Assembly: GCF_003173355.1 (NCBI RefSeq)
Contig: NZ_QGMY01000016.1
Coordinates: forward strand, 1 to 64,000
Source of the DNA: Methanospirillum lacunae
Lineage (GTDB): Archaea; Halobacteriota; Methanomicrobia; Methanomicrobiales; Methanospirillaceae
Length of the DNA: 64,000 bases
Direction of reading: 5' to 3'
Below are positions 31,908-41,493 of the stretch, piece by piece. How positions within the stretch are numbered: the first letter of the stretch is position 1; every line of letters starts with the position of its first letter. A program made the translations under genes and the position numbers. The notes beneath the pieces were generated by a model. That model searched no databases. It saw only the letters and a program-made list of their open reading frames with translations, and had not been told where the DNA came from.

Positions 31908-32978
31908 ATGCAGGGAACAGATCTCGTCTCGGTGAGCCAGAGGTGGCAGGCACGAATAACTGCTTCGCCCGACTACAGGATAGTCCCCCATGACAATGTA
32001 TTCCGCATGGGGCTTCATGCCTCCGCGATTGGTGAATCTACCTATAATCATTTCGAACAATACTACCGCGAAATTTGCCGTAAATATTCCGGTATTCCCG
32101 TTGAAGATGCTATCCCGGGATCCCCAGCCATAAATGAAGATGGAGAATATTACCATGTTCAGAATATTCGGCCGATACAACTCACCTCACATCATCAACC
32201 AGATCCGTCAGTTATGAGTGAACTCAGGCTTGTCAGGGGCATTGGCCCAAAAGGAGCGGATAGGCTCAGGCAACGCGGATGCAAACAAATTTCAGATCTC
32301 CTTCACCACCGCAGGTACCAAAGGAAGGCTGCCCATGTATTGGAAGTACTACATGCAGGTCCAGCTGGTGCGACTCATCTGATCAGATCACGGCTCGGCC
32401 CATCCCATCCCCTGGGCCTGATTGCTTCTGAAGGATTCACTCCTGAAAAAATCAGGTTCCTGGATCTTGAAACTCTGGGCATTTTTGGCAGACCAGTCAT
32501 CCTTTTTGGCATAGGATGTCCTGGTCCAAGAGGATTGACCATCCATCAGTTTGTCCTCAGGGATATTACTGAGGAGCCAGCAGCATTGACAGCAGTCAGA
32601 GAACTCCTTGATGGTGCTGATGTACTGGTAAGTTACAATGGGAGAAGTTTTGATTTCCCATACCTGAATGAGCGATGTGCATACTACGGATTCGATCCCC
32701 TTCCGAGTCTCCCACATATTGATCTTCTCCACTATGCCCGAAGATTGTGGAGGGAACAGATTCCTGATTGCAGGCTCTCAACAGTTGAACAAAAATTCCT
32801 GGGTGTTGAACGTGAATTTGACCTTCCAGGAATGCTTGTCCCTGAGTGGTACATGAAGTACCGGGATACCGGTAACTGTGGTCCATTAGTGCCTATCGTC
32901 AGACATAATGAACAGGATATCGCAAGCCTTCCTCTTCTCCTTGATCTTCTCAGGAGTAAAGCACGTGAGTGTTGCTGA
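31908..32978 (+). CDS. MrfB/YprB-like RNase H-fold exonuclease
   Basis: A 356-residue nuclease. Residues 105-135 hold a helix-hairpin-helix (VRGIGPKGADRLRQRG). The RNase H-like exonuclease domain spans about 183-350 with acidic residues at FLDLET (Asp186, Glu188), NGRSFD (Asp249) and HNEQD (Asp337). This matches the DnaQ-like exonuclease YprB, renamed MrfB in Bacillus, which works with the MrfA helicase in excision of mitomycin-type lesions. The next gene encodes that helicase and starts inside this one. The order here is nuclease then helicase, and the N-terminal 100 residues resemble nothing I recognise. Confidence 0.85.
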   Translation: MQGTDLVSVSQRWQARITASPDYRIVPHDNVFRMGLHASAIGESTYNHFEQYYREICRKYSGIPVEDAIPGSPAINEDGEYYHVQNIRPIQLTSHHQPDPSVMSELRLVRGIGPKGADRLRQRGCKQISDLLHHRRYQRKAAHVLEVLHAGPAGATHLIRSRLGPSHPLGLIASEGFTPEKIRFLDLETLGIFGRPVILFGIGCPGPRGLTIHQFVLRDITEEPAALTAVRELLDGADVLVSYNGRSFDFPYLNERCAYYGFDPLPSLPHIDLLHYARRLWREQIPDCRLSTVEQKFLGVEREFDLPGMLVPEWYMKYRDTGNCGPLVPIVRHNEQDIASLPLLLDLLRSKARECC

Positions 32979-35217
32979 ATTTCTTGAGATCATCGGAGAA
33001 AATTCTCGATTTTCGCGCTACATAGCACACATTAAAGTTATTCCCGGACATGATGCTGTTTTTGGAGAATTACAGGAACCACTCCCGGAACCAGTTGAAA
33101 AATACTTGGATAATATCGGTATCAGACTTTATTCTCACCAGACAAAAGCCATTGATGCAGTTAACTCAGGACAGGATACCATCCTTTGCACACCCACAGC
33201 ATCAGGAAAGACACTCGCTTTCCTTCTCCCATACTGCAAGATGAGGATGCAGGATCCCTCGGCTACTGCTCTTGCCATCTACCCGGCAAAAGCGCTCACC
33301 AGAGATCAACTCACAAATGCAAAAGCAATAAGTGAAGCAACAAAAATCCCTTTTAATCCTGCCATCTATGACGGTGATACTCCCCGTCACGACAGGCCTG
33401 CTATCAGAAACAAAGCAGGTCTCGTTCTGACAAATCCCCACGAGTTACATCATATCCTACCCTGGCATCACCAGTGGTCTGTTTTTTTTTCACACCTGAA
33501 ATACATCATTATTGATGAAGCACATCAGTACCGGGGAATATTTGGGAGCCATATGGCACTTCTGATAAGAAGGCTGCTTCGGATATGTGCACACTATGGA
33601 TCTCATCCAACATTCTTCCTCTCTTCAGCAACCCTGGCCAACCCAAATGAGTTTGCAAAGGAACTCATAGGACGCGATTTTCAGGTTATTGATACATCAG
33701 GAGCACCGGCAGGAGTCAGGTACTTCATTCTTTATAATCCATACATCGGAGGATTTGCTGAAAAGTCAGTTTACACCGAGAGTGCTACACTCCTTGCATC
33801 ACTTGTTGAGGCAGAACTTCAGACACTCTGCTTTACCGGCTCCAGAAAGATGACAGAGGTGGTAACAACATGGGCAAGAGAGCGCCTGAACGAAGGTAAT
33901 TCTAACAGAAACGACAAAATTGCTGCTTATCGTGCAGGTTATCTCCCTGAAGAGCGAAGAAACCTCGAACATCGACTGAAAAAGGGAGAACTGAAAGGTA
34001 TTGTATCAACTAATGCTCTTGAACTAGGGATTGATATTGGATCTCTTGATGCAGTTGTCATGACCGGATATCCTGGGACTATGATGTCAACCTGGCAGCA
34101 GACTGGCAGGGCAGGGAGAGGGGCAGGTCCGTCACTGGCAATTCTTGTCAGCTTTCAAAACCCTCTTGACCAGTATTTCATGGATCACCCAGAGGAGTTT
34201 TTTGGTTCATCCCACGAACATGCGATCATCACCACAAAAAATCCATATATTCTCTCAGGGGAGCTTCTCTGTGCTGCTGCAGAGCTCCCGCTTAATCCTG
34301 CCCTTGATACACGGTGGTTTGGAAACAGAATCCAGGAACATATCAACGCATTTACTGATGCAAATCTTTTAACGAAAACAAATCGTGGATATGTGTATTC
34401 TGGGCGAAAAAGAGCGGTTGAACTGGTGTCTCTTTCAGGCACCGGGGAAACATGGACGATAGAGGAGAGAGGGAGAGTACTTGAGACAGTGGATCTCGGC
34501 CAGGCCTGCAGGGAAGCACACCCAGGGGCTGTCATAATTCACCAGGGCGAGAAATATCTGGTGAACTGGTGGGATCATGGACATCACAGGATCCTTGCCG
34601 ATGCAGCAGATGTAGAATACTACACACGACCAAATCAGCAGACCACCGTTACAATCATAAAAGATACAATCTCAAAAATCGTTCCCGGGGCTGTACTTCA
34701 TCTAGGAGAAGTGGAGGTATCAGAGACCTGCAGTGGATATCGGAAGATCGTCAGGCAGACTACAATTGGATCTGAACCCCTTGTTCTGCCACCGATAACA
34801 TTTACAACATCAGCACTCTGGATGGTTTTTGATCAGGACACTATAACAAAAATCAGCGACAACTCTTGTGATATCACGGGAACACTTCACGGAGCTGAAC
34901 ATGCTCTGATCGCCATGACCCCATTCTTTGTCCTCTGTGACCGGTGGGATCTCGGTGGCCTCTCAACTGCAATAGATCACCAGACAGGTTCAGCAACAAT
35001 ATACATCTACGATGGATATGAAGGTGGAGTGGGTTTAGCTGAACGTGCGTTTGAACTGTTTTTGGATATTTCCAGGATAGCTGCAACCCTTGTTACTGAA
35101 TGTAAGTGCGCATCAGGATGTCCGGCATGCATTCATTCACCAAAATGTGGTAATGACAATCAACCGCTCGACAAAGCAGGGACGAGTATGTTGCTTAAAA
35201 AACTGGCAGGTCTCTAA
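32965..35217 (+). CDS. MrfA/YprA-like DEAH helicase with C-terminal zinc-binding domain
   Basis: A 750-residue superfamily 2 helicase, almost the same length as Bacillus MrfA. Visible motifs are Walker A TASGKTLAFLLPY, DEAH in IIDEAHQYRG, SAT in LSSATLANP, and motif VI QQTGRAGRG. The C-terminal MZB domain (DUF1998) ends with the four-cysteine cluster CKCASGCPACIHSPKC. The GTG at 32965 is chosen because AGGAG stands eight bases upstream and the preceding codons overlap mrfB in another frame. The overlap of 14 bases implies coupled translation. The family includes yeast Hrq1. Likely role: unwinding damaged DNA for excision by the partner exonuclease. Confidence 0.9.
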   Translation: MSVAEFLEIIGENSRFSRYIAHIKVIPGHDAVFGELQEPLPEPVEKYLDNIGIRLYSHQTKAIDAVNSGQDTILCTPTASGKTLAFLLPYCKMRMQDPSATALAIYPAKALTRDQLTNAKAISEATKIPFNPAIYDGDTPRHDRPAIRNKAGLVLTNPHELHHILPWHHQWSVFFSHLKYIIIDEAHQYRGIFGSHMALLIRRLLRICAHYGSHPTFFLSSATLANPNEFAKELIGRDFQVIDTSGAPAGVRYFILYNPYIGGFAEKSVYTESATLLASLVEAELQTLCFTGSRKMTEVVTTWARERLNEGNSNRNDKIAAYRAGYLPEERRNLEHRLKKGELKGIVSTNALELGIDIGSLDAVVMTGYPGTMMSTWQQTGRAGRGAGPSLAILVSFQNPLDQYFMDHPEEFFGSSHEHAIITTKNPYILSGELLCAAAELPLNPALDTRWFGNRIQEHINAFTDANLLTKTNRGYVYSGRKRAVELVSLSGTGETWTIEERGRVLETVDLGQACREAHPGAVIIHQGEKYLVNWWDHGHHRILADAADVEYYTRPNQQTTVTIIKDTISKIVPGAVLHLGEVEVSETCSGYRKIVRQTTIGSEPLVLPPITFTTSALWMVFDQDTITKISDNSCDITGTLHGAEHALIAMTPFFVLCDRWDLGGLSTAIDHQTGSATIYIYDGYEGGVGLAERAFELFLDISRIAATLVTECKCASGCPACIHSPKCGNDNQPLDKAGTSMLLKKLAGL

Positions 35218-35661: not shown

Positions 35662-35850
35662 AGATACCACCTCCGGAGCAGAAAATTACTTATTAGATCT
35701 ATCTTCACGATACATCAATATTGTTAAGTCCTAATAATCAGTGAAAATCATGGAGAGGTATAATACATTTTTTAATTCTTGATCCAGGAAAGTCACTTTT
35801 TTTCCATTTCTCATAAGGCAGATTAAATTATTACCGTTTTTTGCCACAGA

Positions 35851-35882: not shown

Positions 35883-36584
35883 ATGGATTCTGATACACTT
35901 GAGCAGTTGGTAGATATCCCGTACCCACAGCATCCTCATTGTGCAACTGTTCTCGTCCTTGATACCTCAGCCTCCATGAAAGGGGCAAAGATAGCAGAAT
36001 TAAATGAAGGTCTGAAGATCCTATCTGATGAACTCATTCAAGACGATCTTGCAGCAAAGCGAATTGATCTCGCAATCATATCCTTTGGAAGGAAGGTTGA
36101 AGTTATTCAACCATTCACCGGAGTAAGTCAGTTTGAACCACCTGAACTGGAAGCAGGAGGATACACACCGATGGGAGCGGCCATTCTTGAAGCCGCTTCG
36201 ATCATAGAGAAACGTAAGGCTGAATATCGTGAAACCGGAGTTGATTATTATCGTCCCTGGATATTTCTGATTACTGACGGACAACCGACAGACATGTCGC
36301 GGGGCGATACCAGATGGCAGGAGGTTATCCAGGTGATCCACGGTGGCGAATCAGACCGGAAATTCCTATTCTGGGCACTGGGAGTAGATCAGGCTAATAT
36401 GACAGTCCTTCGTGAACTCTCTCCCCCAAACCGCGTACCACTTCAGCTCAAAGAGGCTCAATGGTCTGACATGTTCCTCTGGCTTTCCCGCAGCCTTGCA
36501 AAAATATCAGACTCACGTATCGGGGAGCAAATAAGTCTTGAAAACCCAACCGGACCTGATGGATGGGGTTCAATTCCCCTCTAA
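35883..36584 (+). CDS. von Willebrand factor A protein, TerY-like
   Basis: A 233-residue cytoplasmic vWA domain. The metal-ion-dependent adhesion site is intact: DTSAS near residue 28, a Thr in GGYTPMGAAI, and Asp in TDGQPTD. The N-terminal segment LEQLVDIPYPQHPHCATVLVLD and the length match TerY-type vWA proteins of bacterial tellurite-resistance and stress loci. The ATG at 35883 is used, as the longer frame adds a segment lying over the promoter. It is followed by a PP2C gene (48-base gap) and a kinase gene, forming the TerY-phosphorylation triad in conserved order. Confidence 0.88.
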   Translation: MDSDTLEQLVDIPYPQHPHCATVLVLDTSASMKGAKIAELNEGLKILSDELIQDDLAAKRIDLAIISFGRKVEVIQPFTGVSQFEPPELEAGGYTPMGAAILEAASIIEKRKAEYRETGVDYYRPWIFLITDGQPTDMSRGDTRWQEVIQVIHGGESDRKFLFWALGVDQANMTVLRELSPPNRVPLQLKEAQWSDMFLWLSRSLAKISDSRIGEQISLENPTGPDGWGSIPL

Positions 36585-36632
36585 TCATATAATGCCAGTA
36601 TTAAAGCAGAACCAAAAATCCTGGATTGGTAT

Positions 36633-37394
36633 ATGAATATCAGAATTTCCGGATCTTCAGTCAGGGGAAACAGACATATTCAGTCTGAACAGCCATGCCA
36701 GGATGCATACGCTGTCGCGTATTCAAAAAATGGTTGGGGGATAGCAGTTGCTGACGGACTTGGGAGTGCCGGGCATTCAGATGCCGGAGCCCGAATAGCA
36801 GTCGATACTGCATCTAAAGTAGTAATTGCTGATTTTGAATGTCCCGATATTTCAGTTGAAGAACGGATAAGGCAGGCATTTCTCAAGGCACGAGAGGCGG
36901 TTATTAAAGAAGCTAGTGAACTGGAGATTAGCCCATCAGAGTTTGCATCAACGTTGATCGTGGCATTCTATTCTGGAGAGAGGATCACCCTTGGACATAT
37001 CGGAGATGGCATTGCAGTAGGCACAAAGAAAGATCAGGCTGTGCTCCTGTCATCACCAGGTGAAAGCGAATATGCAAACGAGACTGCCAGTCTTATACAA
37101 ACAGACTGGGAAAACCAATTACGGATTACTCCTTGTTTTGAAATTGATCACGTTATTATCGCAACTGACGGGTGCCAGGGAGCACTTGCAGTTAAACGGG
37201 ACGGAAGGTATCAACCGCACGAACCATTCATTCTCCCACTGATCTCATTTATTGAGAGAAAAATATCAGTTAACCTGAGTCCAGAACCTGACATCTCCAC
37301 GTTGCTCTCCTCCAAAAAAATGCAGGAACTTTCAGGTGATGATAAAACCCTTGTGGTCATTTTCAGGGAGCAAGTACCTAAAGCAGAGTCCTGA
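36633..37394 (+). CDS. PP2C-family protein phosphatase
   Basis: A 253-residue PPM/PP2C serine/threonine phosphatase. Metal-binding and structural motifs are present: VADGLGSAGHSDAGA near residues 36-50, GHIGDG in the middle, IATDGC and the final GDDKTLVV aspartate. It starts with a short RGNRHIQSEQPCQDA segment typical of the family. As the middle gene of the triad it would reverse phosphorylation made by the next gene's kinase. The kinase gene starts 10 bases downstream. Confidence 0.92.
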   Translation: MNIRISGSSVRGNRHIQSEQPCQDAYAVAYSKNGWGIAVADGLGSAGHSDAGARIAVDTASKVVIADFECPDISVEERIRQAFLKAREAVIKEASELEISPSEFASTLIVAFYSGERITLGHIGDGIAVGTKKDQAVLLSSPGESEYANETASLIQTDWENQLRITPCFEIDHVIIATDGCQGALAVKRDGRYQPHEPFILPLISFIERKISVNLSPEPDISTLLSSKKMQELSGDDKTLVVIFREQVPKAES

Positions 37395-37404
37395 AGGATA
37401 ACCA

Positions 37405-40400
37405 ATGGCTGCACTCTTTACCGGTAACAGCCCGCCACGGCTCAAGGTAGATCGTGACCTGATTCCGGTTCAGAGTGTCACCAGTGTAAAGACTGAAATC
37501 CTCACAATAATGAATGACGGAGGAGGGATCCTCAAGGGAACTGCTATCTCCGATGTGAGTTGGATCAGGATACCCAACCCTCGTATTGAGACACCTTTTA
37601 TTGTTCCTTTCAGAATCGAGATTGTACCCGGACGAGTCTCACCTAATATCCCGCTAAAAGGCGCAGTTACCATTATCACCAACGGAGGAACAGTAAAGGT
37701 CAGGGTTGAATGCAATACCCTGCCTGCAATAAAACCGTGCCTCACAGTTGACGAGCGTCAGTTTCAGTTCTGTAACCTCAGAAAAGGGGAAAATTTCTCA
37801 TTTGATCTTATTATCCGCAACAGTGGAAACGGGTTACTCAGCGGAACAATTCAATCTGAATCCGACTGGATAGAAGTAAAATCACGAACACTCTGGACGC
37901 AAAAAGTTCAGGTAGTTCAGGTAACTGTCCATACTACAAATGCACCTATAGTACGCCAGCCTACAGGAAAAATAAGGATCAGAAGTACAGGAGGAGACCT
38001 AGAGGTCCCTATCTCCATCAACTTCCGAGGTGGAGATGGCCCGATATTGAAACTAATTTCATCACGGATAATATGTTTATGGGATAAGAAGGGGATCTTC
38101 GAAGAAACGCTCAAAATTCAGAATGAAGGCCGTGGAATTCTCAGAGGAACTATCCCGGCACCGGCTCCCTGGATAAAAATCCTGCCATCTATCTTCTCTG
38201 CTGAATCAAGCAAAAAAATTCTTTTTAAAATTGACACCCGGATGCTCACATCTGACAGGAGTGTGAGCGTTCCGGTTCAGATCATCACCAATGCCGGAAC
38301 ACAGATCCTCACCCTTGATGTTGTTCCTTCAAGACGCACCCCGGTTCAGGTCAAAAAAACCCGGACGTCGGTAAGGCAGCAACCACGTACCAAACTCACA
38401 GTTTATGAACCGGGTGGAAAGGTGTGCACCCTAATTTCAACGGGTAAAGCAGGAGGCGAGGGTGAGATCTACTACTTTGCTGATGATGATACAAAATGTG
38501 CCAAGATCTTTCACCCTCATCGAAGGACACAGGAGATCGAAGAGAAGATTCGTACAATGATTGCTGCCCCTCCAGAGAGGGAACTACTACAATTCCTGAC
38601 CTGGCCACTGAAACCTCTTACTGATCTTCCAGGAGGGGGAAAGATCATCGGATATGTTATGCGTCGTATCCCTGATGAGTATAGATCTGTCCACCTTTGG
38701 TACGATGAACCACAAGAAAAAGAGAAGAGAAACCTCCAAAGTCGTATCGTTGCCTCACTTCAGCTAGCGAGACTTGTGGCCGGTGTTCACAAAGCAGGGC
38801 ATGTAATTGGCGACCTACGGGAAAATAACCTGCTCATCAACAAACGCGGTGATCTTGTTCTTATTGATACAGACTCATTTCAGATTCGTGATAAAAACAG
38901 CAGACGAACTTTCTGGAGCCGGGTAGGAACAGGCGAGTACCTCCCTCCTGAGCATCTGGATGGATCGTTTGCAGAATCAGGATGTGATCGTCGGTATGGC
39001 GATTACTTTGCTCTGGCGGTTCTCATTTTCAGGTTCATGATGGGCGGTGTTCATCCATTTCAGGCCAAAGGGCCACTCGTTAAGGATGCACCAGCAACTA
39101 CAGATAAGATATTGCTTGGGTACTTTGCATTTGAGTGTCGAATCGCCGGAATATCCCCTCCAGATTACGCACCTCCATATGCTTCTCTTCCATCTTCATT
39201 TCAAACACTTTTTAGGGAAACATTTGTTTCAGGACTACGTGAACCTCACAAAAGACCTGGTGCTGAACGTTGGGAAACAATGCTTTCTTCACTCATTCCC
39301 AGGGAGAAAAAAATCCAGGAGACGACGAAGCAGAGGGTCGTGGAAAAACAAAATCAAGATACGCGAATTACTCTTGACGGATGGAGTGATCCGAATAAAC
39401 TAAAAACAGATCAGAGCGGGATATTATTTCGAACTGAGGCCGGGATCATCACCACATTTGTGCCAGGAACACAGGTGTTCATTGTTCACAATGGGATTAA
39501 TCCGCCAGAGCCAGGTGCAATATATCCACATGGGATTCCACAGTCGCTTGTTATCCCGCTACAGGTTGTGTATAGAGATAATATGCCAGTAGGATGGACG
39601 ATTCAGGCAATCGACCCAGGAAGATTTCATCCATGGCATGTGGCTGCCGATCCACAAAGCAGAAGAGAGAGATTTGATGGGAAATTTTACTTTAAACACC
39701 GTATTGCAGCCTGCCTCAACCTGACGGCTGTACTCATATCAGCCAGAAACCATGGCATCAGGGATGTGTACCTCTCTGAACGGACTGTATTCGTGGGCCC
39801 TGACGCATCGATCAGATTACTCATCCTCCCAAAACCAGAACAGGTAATGTCCACTTTAAAGATGAGTTTGTCGCCTGCAATCCTTATCTTTAGAATGTTG
39901 ATGGATGGATACCACCCATTCCATGCAATAGGAAGCCGGACAACAGGTGCAGGATCACATGAACGACGGATGGCATCAGGTCTCTATCCATGGAGTGATG
40001 ATGATCCTGCTCTTCGCCCACCACCACAAGCACCACCTATCAGGACACTTCCAAAGCCTCTCATCGATCTCTTTGATGAAGAATTCCAAGAATTCAAAGG
40101 AGATTCACAGGATAATAACAACATCGAAACCTGGTTTAATGTAATAGATCAGGTGTACAAGCGACTGGTCTGTTGCGATTTAAATCCAGACCACTGGTAT
40201 CTTCCAGATTCCGAAGGGTGTCCCTGGTGCAATCTTAATTACCTGAAATCTGTGCCTACTTCCATCTGTCTTGTACAGCAGATTTTTTCACCTGTCGTTT
40301 TCTTACTCATGGCCCCAAAGGTGGCAGGACTGCTGCAGGAGCGAAACAGACGCAGACGAACAACCTCTACCCGTACAGAACCACCACGCTGGGTAACCAT

Positions 40401-41070
40401 ACCACTCCCTCCGGAACGCATAACCCGGATTCTCCTTCCAAAAAAGAACTGTATCCTCGCTCTCGGATCAGGTAAAAAGACAAGGTACCTGCCTGTTCAA
40501 TACACCAGACCATGGATTGCATGTATTCATCGGTCAGATGATCAGGAAGTGGATTTCAAGATCCAAAAGGACCTAAAACCCCGGGATAAGGACTCTGAAA
40601 TGATCCATCCAATATTCATTCAGGGAATGGAGGACATTACCCTTGTCGATGAGATGATATGGGTCAGTATGATGGACAGGCTCAGGGGAGAAGGTATCGG
40701 CCAGCCGCGGAGAAAAATCAGGACAAAAACACGGGAGAAGATCCAGAGGAGAAGGCCAATAGAGGTCATGCTCTATCCCATAGACCTTCGTATCCCTGAA
40801 AAGGCCATCGATGAATCAGATATAACAAACCAGGTCATTTCAAATCAGGTAAAACCAACATCAAAAAGAGGGGCGAGAACAAGAATAAGATCAAGACTCC
40901 AGACGATCCTCAAAGATTTCATCTGGGGAGGGGATCTGGATCAATCCTCTCCAGTATCTGATGAAAATAATTCAATACATATACCTGGGTCTGATGAGGC
41001 TCATAAGACCAAAAACAAGAAGGTAACATCCGAGGAAAAAGACCATGATCTGCATTCCCTGGACCGGTGA
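37405..41070 (+). CDS. Large multi-domain protein kinase of the TerY-type triad
   Basis: A 1221-residue protein. Residues 1-310 form three Ig/BACON-like beta domains of about 100 residues, each with a W-I and a G-G-I/L-L turn. A protein-kinase domain follows (about 330-620): glycine loop GKAGGEGE, Lys367, catalytic loop GDLRENN with Asp470 and Asn475, and DTD at 488-490 in place of DFG. A second, diverged kinase-like domain covers about 655-900 and lacks the catalytic residues. Next comes a Cys/His cluster ending CPWC (924-942), a hydrophobic stretch near 955-975 and a basic, disordered tail. The CPWC element recurs in kinases of bacterial TerY triads. The last 99 bases overlap the convergent HdeD-like gene. 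Confidence 0.85.
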   Translation: MAALFTGNSPPRLKVDRDLIPVQSVTSVKTEILTIMNDGGGILKGTAISDVSWIRIPNPRIETPFIVPFRIEIVPGRVSPNIPLKGAVTIITNGGTVKVRVECNTLPAIKPCLTVDERQFQFCNLRKGENFSFDLIIRNSGNGLLSGTIQSESDWIEVKSRTLWTQKVQVVQVTVHTTNAPIVRQPTGKIRIRSTGGDLEVPISINFRGGDGPILKLISSRIICLWDKKGIFEETLKIQNEGRGILRGTIPAPAPWIKILPSIFSAESSKKILFKIDTRMLTSDRSVSVPVQIITNAGTQILTLDVVPSRRTPVQVKKTRTSVRQQPRTKLTVYEPGGKVCTLISTGKAGGEGEIYYFADDDTKCAKIFHPHRRTQEIEEKIRTMIAAPPERELLQFLTWPLKPLTDLPGGGKIIGYVMRRIPDEYRSVHLWYDEPQEKEKRNLQSRIVASLQLARLVAGVHKAGHVIGDLRENNLLINKRGDLVLIDTDSFQIRDKNSRRTFWSRVGTGEYLPPEHLDGSFAESGCDRRYGDYFALAVLIFRFMMGGVHPFQAKGPLVKDAPATTDKILLGYFAFECRIAGISPPDYAPPYASLPSSFQTLFRETFVSGLREPHKRPGAERWETMLSSLIPREKKIQETTKQRVVEKQNQDTRITLDGWSDPNKLKTDQSGILFRTEAGIITTFVPGTQVFIVHNGINPPEPGAIYPHGIPQSLVIPLQVVYRDNMPVGWTIQAIDPGRFHPWHVAADPQSRRERFDGKFYFKHRIAACLNLTAVLISARNHGIRDVYLSERTVFVGPDASIRLLILPKPEQVMSTLKMSLSPAILIFRMLMDGYHPFHAIGSRTTGAGSHERRMASGLYPWSDDDPALRPPPQAPPIRTLPKPLIDLFDEEFQEFKGDSQDNNNIETWFNVIDQVYKRLVCCDLNPDHWYLPDSEGCPWCNLNYLKSVPTSICLVQQIFSPVVFLLMAPKVAGLLQERNRRRRTTSTRTEPPRWVTIPLPPERITRILLPKKNCILALGSGKKTRYLPVQYTRPWIACIHRSDDQEVDFKIQKDLKPRDKDSEMIHPIFIQGMEDITLVDEMIWVSMMDRLRGEGIGQPRRKIRTKTREKIQRRRPIEVMLYPIDLRIPEKAIDESDITNQVISNQVKPTSKRGARTRIRSRLQTILKDFIWGGDLDQSSPVSDENNSIHIPGSDEAHKTKNKKVTSEEKDHDLHSLDR

Positions 41071-41493
41071 AACGAGCAGAAAAAGACCGACTATAACGGT
41101 CAGGGTTCCACCCAGAAGGGCCAAGGCATAATAGAGTTTGTCTACTGAAAAGCGGGAAGCAAGCAGGAGTTGGCCAGCACCAAGGAAGAACATCCAGACA
41201 CCAAGAAATATTCCCAGCACAGAAACGGCAAGATCAGGCGAGACAAGTGCGGTAATGCCTAAACAGAAGCCCAGAATACCAAGGATCAGCAGGGCTAACC
41301 CAAATCCGATCCCCCGCATCATCGCACCAGAGATGATCATGCCAACAGATATCACCAGCACTATTGCAGAAAGTACTGTTCCAATAAGACTTGTGACAAA
41401 CGGAGCAAAGAGAAGAATAATTATACCGATAATCAGTGCAATAAGCCCTGAAGACCGTTGACTCTGTGGTGTCGAAACCCAGACAAACTCCAT
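40972..41493 (-). CDS. HdeD/DUF308-family membrane protein
   Basis: A 173-residue integral membrane protein with six hydrophobic helices arranged as paired repeats, typical of the HdeD (DUF308) family linked to acid resistance in bacteria. Glycine-rich helices such as LGVWMFFLGAGQLLLA are visible. The C-terminal 32 codons lie antisense to the end of the kinase gene. The hydrophobic pattern continues into this overlap, so the stop codon is believable. Role in archaea unknown. Confidence 0.82.
   Translation of the reverse strand: MEFVWVSTPQSQRSSGLIALIIGIIILLFAPFVTSLIGTVLSAIVLVISVGMIISGAMMRGIGFGLALLILGILGFCLGITALVSPDLAVSVLGIFLGVWMFFLGAGQLLLASRFSVDKLYYALALLGGTLTVIVGLFLLVSPVQGMQIMVFFLGCYLLVFGLMSLIRPRYMY

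Follow-up and report, generated by a model that had tools for sequence, protein, structure and literature searches.

A predicted archaeal TerY-P-type triad in Methanospirillum lacunae whose kinase carries a second, kinase-derived pseudokinase domain

The window, a 64,000-nucleotide stretch of Methanospirillum lacunae DNA, bears three adjacent plus-strand open reading frames with intergenic gaps of 48 and 10 bases (Table 1), as an earlier note on this DNA had described. The products that the note named, a vWA protein with a complete MIDAS, a phosphatase of the PP2C type and a large kinase, are borne out by Pfam scores of 37 bits for VWA (cut-off 23.8), 151 bits for PP2C_2 (cut-off 24) and 32.0 bits for Pkinase (cut-off 31.7; residues 452-555 of the 1221-residue kinase). 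For the vWA protein the ATG at 35883 is favoured over an upstream TTG at 35841 because several relatives start at the equivalent residue. The closest locus to the triad is on a Methanospirillum hungatei MAG contig. A convergent gene for a DUF308 membrane protein (40972-41493, minus strand) overlaps the 3' end of the kinase gene with its own 3' end by 99 bases (40972-41070), an overlap that is present in locus L036 and absent from L037. The kinase match in the latter genome (G204; L009 / L037 5383-9060) contains two in-frame stops, so the C-terminal tail of that kinase may be truncated.

Table 1. Positions of the three triad genes and of the parts of the kinase within the window.
Feature	Positions	Strand	Basis
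TerY/YegL-type vWA protein, 233 aa, complete MIDAS	35883..36584	+	Pfam, profiles, relatives' alignment
PP2C (PPM) phosphatase, 253 aa, PphC-like, metal-binding aspartates retained	36633..37394	+	Pfam, alignment
YegI-type Ser/Thr kinase, 1221 aa, multidomain	37405..41070	+	Pfam, E. coli comparison
Kinase residues 1-315: about three Ig/BACON/HYDIN-like beta domains	37405..38349	+	Weak Pfam, hhalign
Kinase residues 319-640: first kinase domain; motifs GKAGGEGE, CAKIF, GDLRENN, IDTDSFQ intact	38359..39324	+	
Kinase residues 641-920: predicted pseudokinase	39325..40164	+	Motif loss, tree, hhalign
Kinase residues 923-942: zinc-ribbon motif CCDLNPDHWYLPDSEGCPWC, family hallmark, joined to pseudokinase	40171..40230	+	
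Kinase residues 947-1221: fast-evolving C-terminal tail, without recognised domain	40243..41067	+	Pfam, dN/dS

Alignments show that the MIDAS residues D27, S29, S31, T95 and D132 of the vWA protein are retained in 41-42 of 42 relatives, and that D24, D41, D125, D179, D236 and D237 of the phosphatase are retained in all 39 relatives aligned. Near the C-terminus of the vWA protein, Ser204 and Ser209 are invariant in the rows of all 42 relatives, that of the ter-plasmid TerY included. By their conservation these serines are candidate phosphosites, or they could instead be structural, since they lie at the end of the last vWA helix. The literature that we searched holds no demonstration of vWA phosphorylation in any triad, and a PDB sequence search with the vWA protein returned no match. 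Searches for the PP2C protein gave no match in any of the archaeal control genomes.

The gene order, vWA-PP2C-kinase, is identical to that of YegL-PphC-YegI in E. coli K-12. Identity is 47% between the vWA protein and YegL (over 215 aa), 28% between the phosphatase and PphC, and 30% between the first kinase domain and YegI, which shares with the window kinase a C-H-C-C motif after the kinase. YegI differs in having one kinase domain, with neither Ig-like domains nor a pseudokinase; an HhH match in it is sub-threshold, and it is reported to be membrane-bound and to autophosphorylate on Ser, the phosphate being removed from it by PphC (PMC13232886). The TerY-P triad of ter plasmids has the same gene order and a C-terminal Cys-rich ribbon on its kinase, with identities to the window proteins of 29% (vWA), 26% (PP2C) and 26% (kinase), but its vWA protein is annotated with a TerY-C metal-binding C-terminus and its PP2C has a long N-terminal extension, both unlike the window proteins; it also sits in a ter operon, whereas a TerD search of the window's genome found none. 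With a profile built from YegL-type proteins of bacteria, the window vWA protein reaches 235 bits and the ter TerY 80 bits; with a ter-type profile the window protein reaches 81 bits. Neither profile matches the BatA-like vWA protein of the same genome, and the YegL-type profile does not match E. coli YfbK.

TerY-P has been defined by a TerY-like vWA protein, a PP2C and a kinase with a C-terminal zinc ribbon (PMC11090510, PMC4978471). In the window we find a TerY-like vWA protein, an adjacent PP2C gene and a kinase with a C-terminal zinc-ribbon motif, and the three genes remain linked in relatives. With the identities and the YegL-type profile scores, this indicates an archaeal TerY-P-type triad of the YegL branch, closest to the free-standing YegL-PphC-YegI triads, and agrees with the TerY-type reading of the earlier note, in that the vWA protein groups with TerY/YegL. 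Triads of this kind are already familiar from bacteria; what sets this one apart is that its kinase has acquired several Ig-like domains and a second copy of the kinase domain that is dead.

It is thus the kinase, with Ig-like domains, an intact kinase and a pseudokinase bearing a zinc ribbon, that is the unusual part of the triad. The Methanospirillum kinases begin with Ig-like domains, continue with an intact kinase and a second kinase-like domain, and then carry the zinc-ribbon motif. The extra beta domains noticed previously are Ig/BACON/HYDIN-like, by Pfam matches that are weak and below cut-off; the Ig-like block is N-terminal in the family of the window kinase and C-terminal in another family (hhalign 99.5%), and kinases of other relatives have HEAT repeats. 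In most triad kinases a C-x-H-x-CP[WF]C motif directly follows the single kinase domain, whereas the C-H-C-C motif of the window kinase, from which a zinc ribbon is predicted, sits after the pseudokinase and not directly after the active domain. Kinases of the YegI type lack the His of HRD, which weighs against the switch proposed below. AlphaFold2 models built from two-row alignments have a mean pLDDT of 33.5 for the pseudokinase region and 32.0 for the Ig region.

The earlier note had also claimed a second kinase-like domain. This domain is real, matching kinases mainly over the C-lobe at hhalign probabilities of 97-99% with the zinc motif trimmed off, but it is predicted to be catalytically dead, as the Gly loop, Lys, catalytic Asp and Asn, DFG Asp and activation segment are missing in 9/9 genus members. 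We regard it on these grounds as a kinase-derived pseudokinase. In another genus, represented by genome G130, the second copy is full-length and also dead. A kinase-domain tree unites the second copies with a support of 94 and joins the first copies, together with one extra row, in a separate group, indicating that the duplication predates the split from the genus of G130 and is older than Methanospirillum, although the long branches of this tree call for care.

Estimates of dN/dS are 0.008-0.03 for the vWA protein, 0.04-0.09 for the active kinase domain, 0.12-0.14 for the Ig block, 0.15-0.17 for PP2C, 0.20 for the pseudokinase and 0.20-0.30 for the C-terminal tail of the kinase. When the window is compared with the closest full relative, dS is near saturation and the ratios are rough. 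The unsaturated G198/G200 pair serves better, with approximate domain borders: its dN/dS climbs from 0.008 (vWA protein) through 0.085 (active domain) and 0.17 (PP2C) to about 0.20 (pseudokinase). These values indicate that the pseudokinase is still under purifying selection. As the fastest-evolving folded part, which in one clade has lost the activation segment and further parts of the C-lobe, it could be a degenerating remnant that has no role itself and is retained merely as the carrier of the zinc ribbon; this is unlikely, however, given a dN/dS of about 0.2 with no stops, its presence in each of the nine genus members compared, and a counterpart that is full-length but dead in another genus. 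A functional role is possible, if still short of an even chance: tandem duplication may have produced an active kinase-pseudokinase pair in which the dead copy with its zinc ribbon acts as the TerY-P sensor or allosteric switch while the Ig-like arrays supply another input, which would make the system a prokaryotic counterpart of JAK-type control. JAK kinases combine an active and an inactive kinase copy in a single polypeptide. So does PglW (PMC12839542), like the window kinase; unlike in either, the dead copy in the window is C-terminal, appears to have arisen within the TerY-P kinase lineage and retains the zinc ribbon.

The kinase search covered 232 genomes of the order and identified relatives in 74, including all 12 same-genus genomes, and every complete TerY-type neighbourhood that we read has the order vWA-PP2C-kinase. 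The recurrence of this order in about 30 archaeal neighbourhoods and in bacteria argues that the triad is not due to chance, and answers the check on relatives that the earlier note had proposed. Strong vWA matches are present in 22 of 393 genomes of a sample of the phylum, 20 of them within the order. The copies of one genus (g12) are close to bacterial YegL and are parted from the main archaeal clade in the vWA tree (98/99 support, unrooted), which suggests either two or more transfers from bacteria or an ancient divergence; this tree yields unrooted groupings only, and the long branches of the ter rows and of the second triad described below leave their placement unsure.

Wherever the contigs of the genus extend far enough upstream, the triad is preceded by a 140-aa opposite-strand gene and mrfA/mrfB-like helicase/nuclease genes. 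In the window the mrfB/mrfA-like pair, a nuclease (RNase_H_2) and a DEAD helicase with the MrfA Zn-binding domain, lies at 31908-35217, and the opposite-strand gene separates these repair genes from the triad. Downstream lie hem genes, which the window shares with two close relatives and with G130. We also looked for a fourth gene that recurs near the triads, and found only lineage-specific synteny. We considered but rejected a mobile origin for the triad in the window, as its GC equals that of its surroundings and its synteny is shared in the genus.

Related bacterial TerY-P triads are described as protecting against T7-like phages (PMC7699616), and the window triad could by analogy be an anti-phage or conflict module, its kinase sensing infection and triggering a protective response. 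Anti-phage TerY-P (Gao 2020, as given in PMC11090510 and PMC7699616) has the same three-protein composition as the window triad, but an OB-fold replaces the zinc ribbon of its kinase (PMC11090510) and it acts as a stand-alone defence, whereas the PADLOC TerY match of the window is very weak (13.5 bits, E 0.009, partial) and neither the PP2C nor the kinase gene has a TerY-P-specific PADLOC match. The PADLOC TerY model is a narrow one, since the ter-plasmid TerY itself is not matched by it. No defence genes adjoin the triad, which lacks the association with ter genes or with DNA-processing or defence modules that is frequent, not obligatory, in TerY-P, and no nuclease or restriction partner is fused to it or beside it; synteny with housekeeping genes is fixed across the genus, and the GC of the triad equals that of the window. 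Because of these fixed neighbours, the lack of TerD in the genome and the poor fit of the anti-phage models, a defence island is unsupported, and we consider a role in defence improbable. The earlier note, seeing no ter genes in view, had suggested a new archaeal module for stress or defence signalling; this is not supported, the closest relatives being the YegL-PphC-YegI triads.

Several other loci contain related triads. The second triad of the same genome (L003 7230-10310, minus strand; contig C2 about 231229-234309) is likewise a complete set of vWA, PP2C and kinase genes; it has a single kinase domain, the same zinc motif and, from the sequence, probable membrane helices. Its GC of 33.8% is lower than that of its locus (39.9%) and of the window (46%); the kinase search showed no such triad in other same-genus genomes, and it is probably a recent import. 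Elsewhere in the phylum, in a distant genome (L101 6329-10151), a bPH-domain gene precedes the triad, the kinase has a PIN-like N-terminal extension by eye, and ParA-like and helicase-like genes are nearby. Seven loci of other Methanomicrobiales (L057, L059, L061, L063, L064, L066 and L073) hold a second, more divergent class with a ter-like vWA protein, a PP2C and a kinase with a Cys-rich motif and, by eye, an FHA-like tail, followed by a HEAT-repeat-like protein. In another family (L051 10243-12410 and L054 4126-6359) a STAS-like protein, a membrane protein and a candidate RsbW-like ATPase adjoin the triad by eye, possibly as a partner-switching module.

The foregoing analysis establishes gene identity and order, motif integrity, conservation, pseudokinase status and evolutionary rates. 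We favour, with a probability of roughly 0.6, the interpretation that the window triad is a vertically kept archaeal TerY-P / YegL-PphC-YegI phosphorylation switch, with the kinase as input, PP2C as reset and the vWA protein as output; its signalling direction, its substrate, the role of the pseudokinase and the physiological signal are what we infer. The Ig-like domains and the pseudokinase-zinc-ribbon unit, as a sensor or allosteric element, would control the single active kinase domain, which would autophosphorylate, phosphorylate a partner, most likely the vWA protein on its invariant C-terminal serines, or do both. The PP2C protein would take the phosphate off again, and the slowly evolving vWA protein would bind a conserved target via its metal-ion site. 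This switch is supported by homology to, and identical order with, E. coli yegL-pphC-yegI and by the zinc-ribbon motif that directly follows the kinase unit in nearly all triad kinases, that of the ter plasmid included. The near-frozen vWA protein beside a fast-changing kinase suggests a constant output and a variable input, and the variability of the kinase accessory parts, with Ig-like domains at either end and HEAT repeats, also supports a variable input.

vWA domains are usually metal-dependent binding modules, and the extreme conservation of the window protein would fit essential contacts, so that it might instead serve only to bring the kinase and the phosphatase together with the target, as an adaptor or scaffold, with the kinase phosphorylating targets elsewhere in the cell. 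We find this rather unlikely, as it accounts less directly for the invariant C-terminal serines than does a switch with the vWA protein as output.

Loci linked to stress, tellurite or phage defence repeatedly contain TerY-P triads, and the triad of the window documents a PP2C-based pathway in archaea, in which PP2C is uncommon. The Methanomicrobiales offer a natural series, from a single kinase with a zinc ribbon, through a full-length dead second copy, to an eroded pseudokinase, beside a vWA protein that is almost unchanging. This series makes it testable whether the vWA protein is an output with serine phosphosites and whether a pseudokinase may take over sensing in a prokaryotic kinase.
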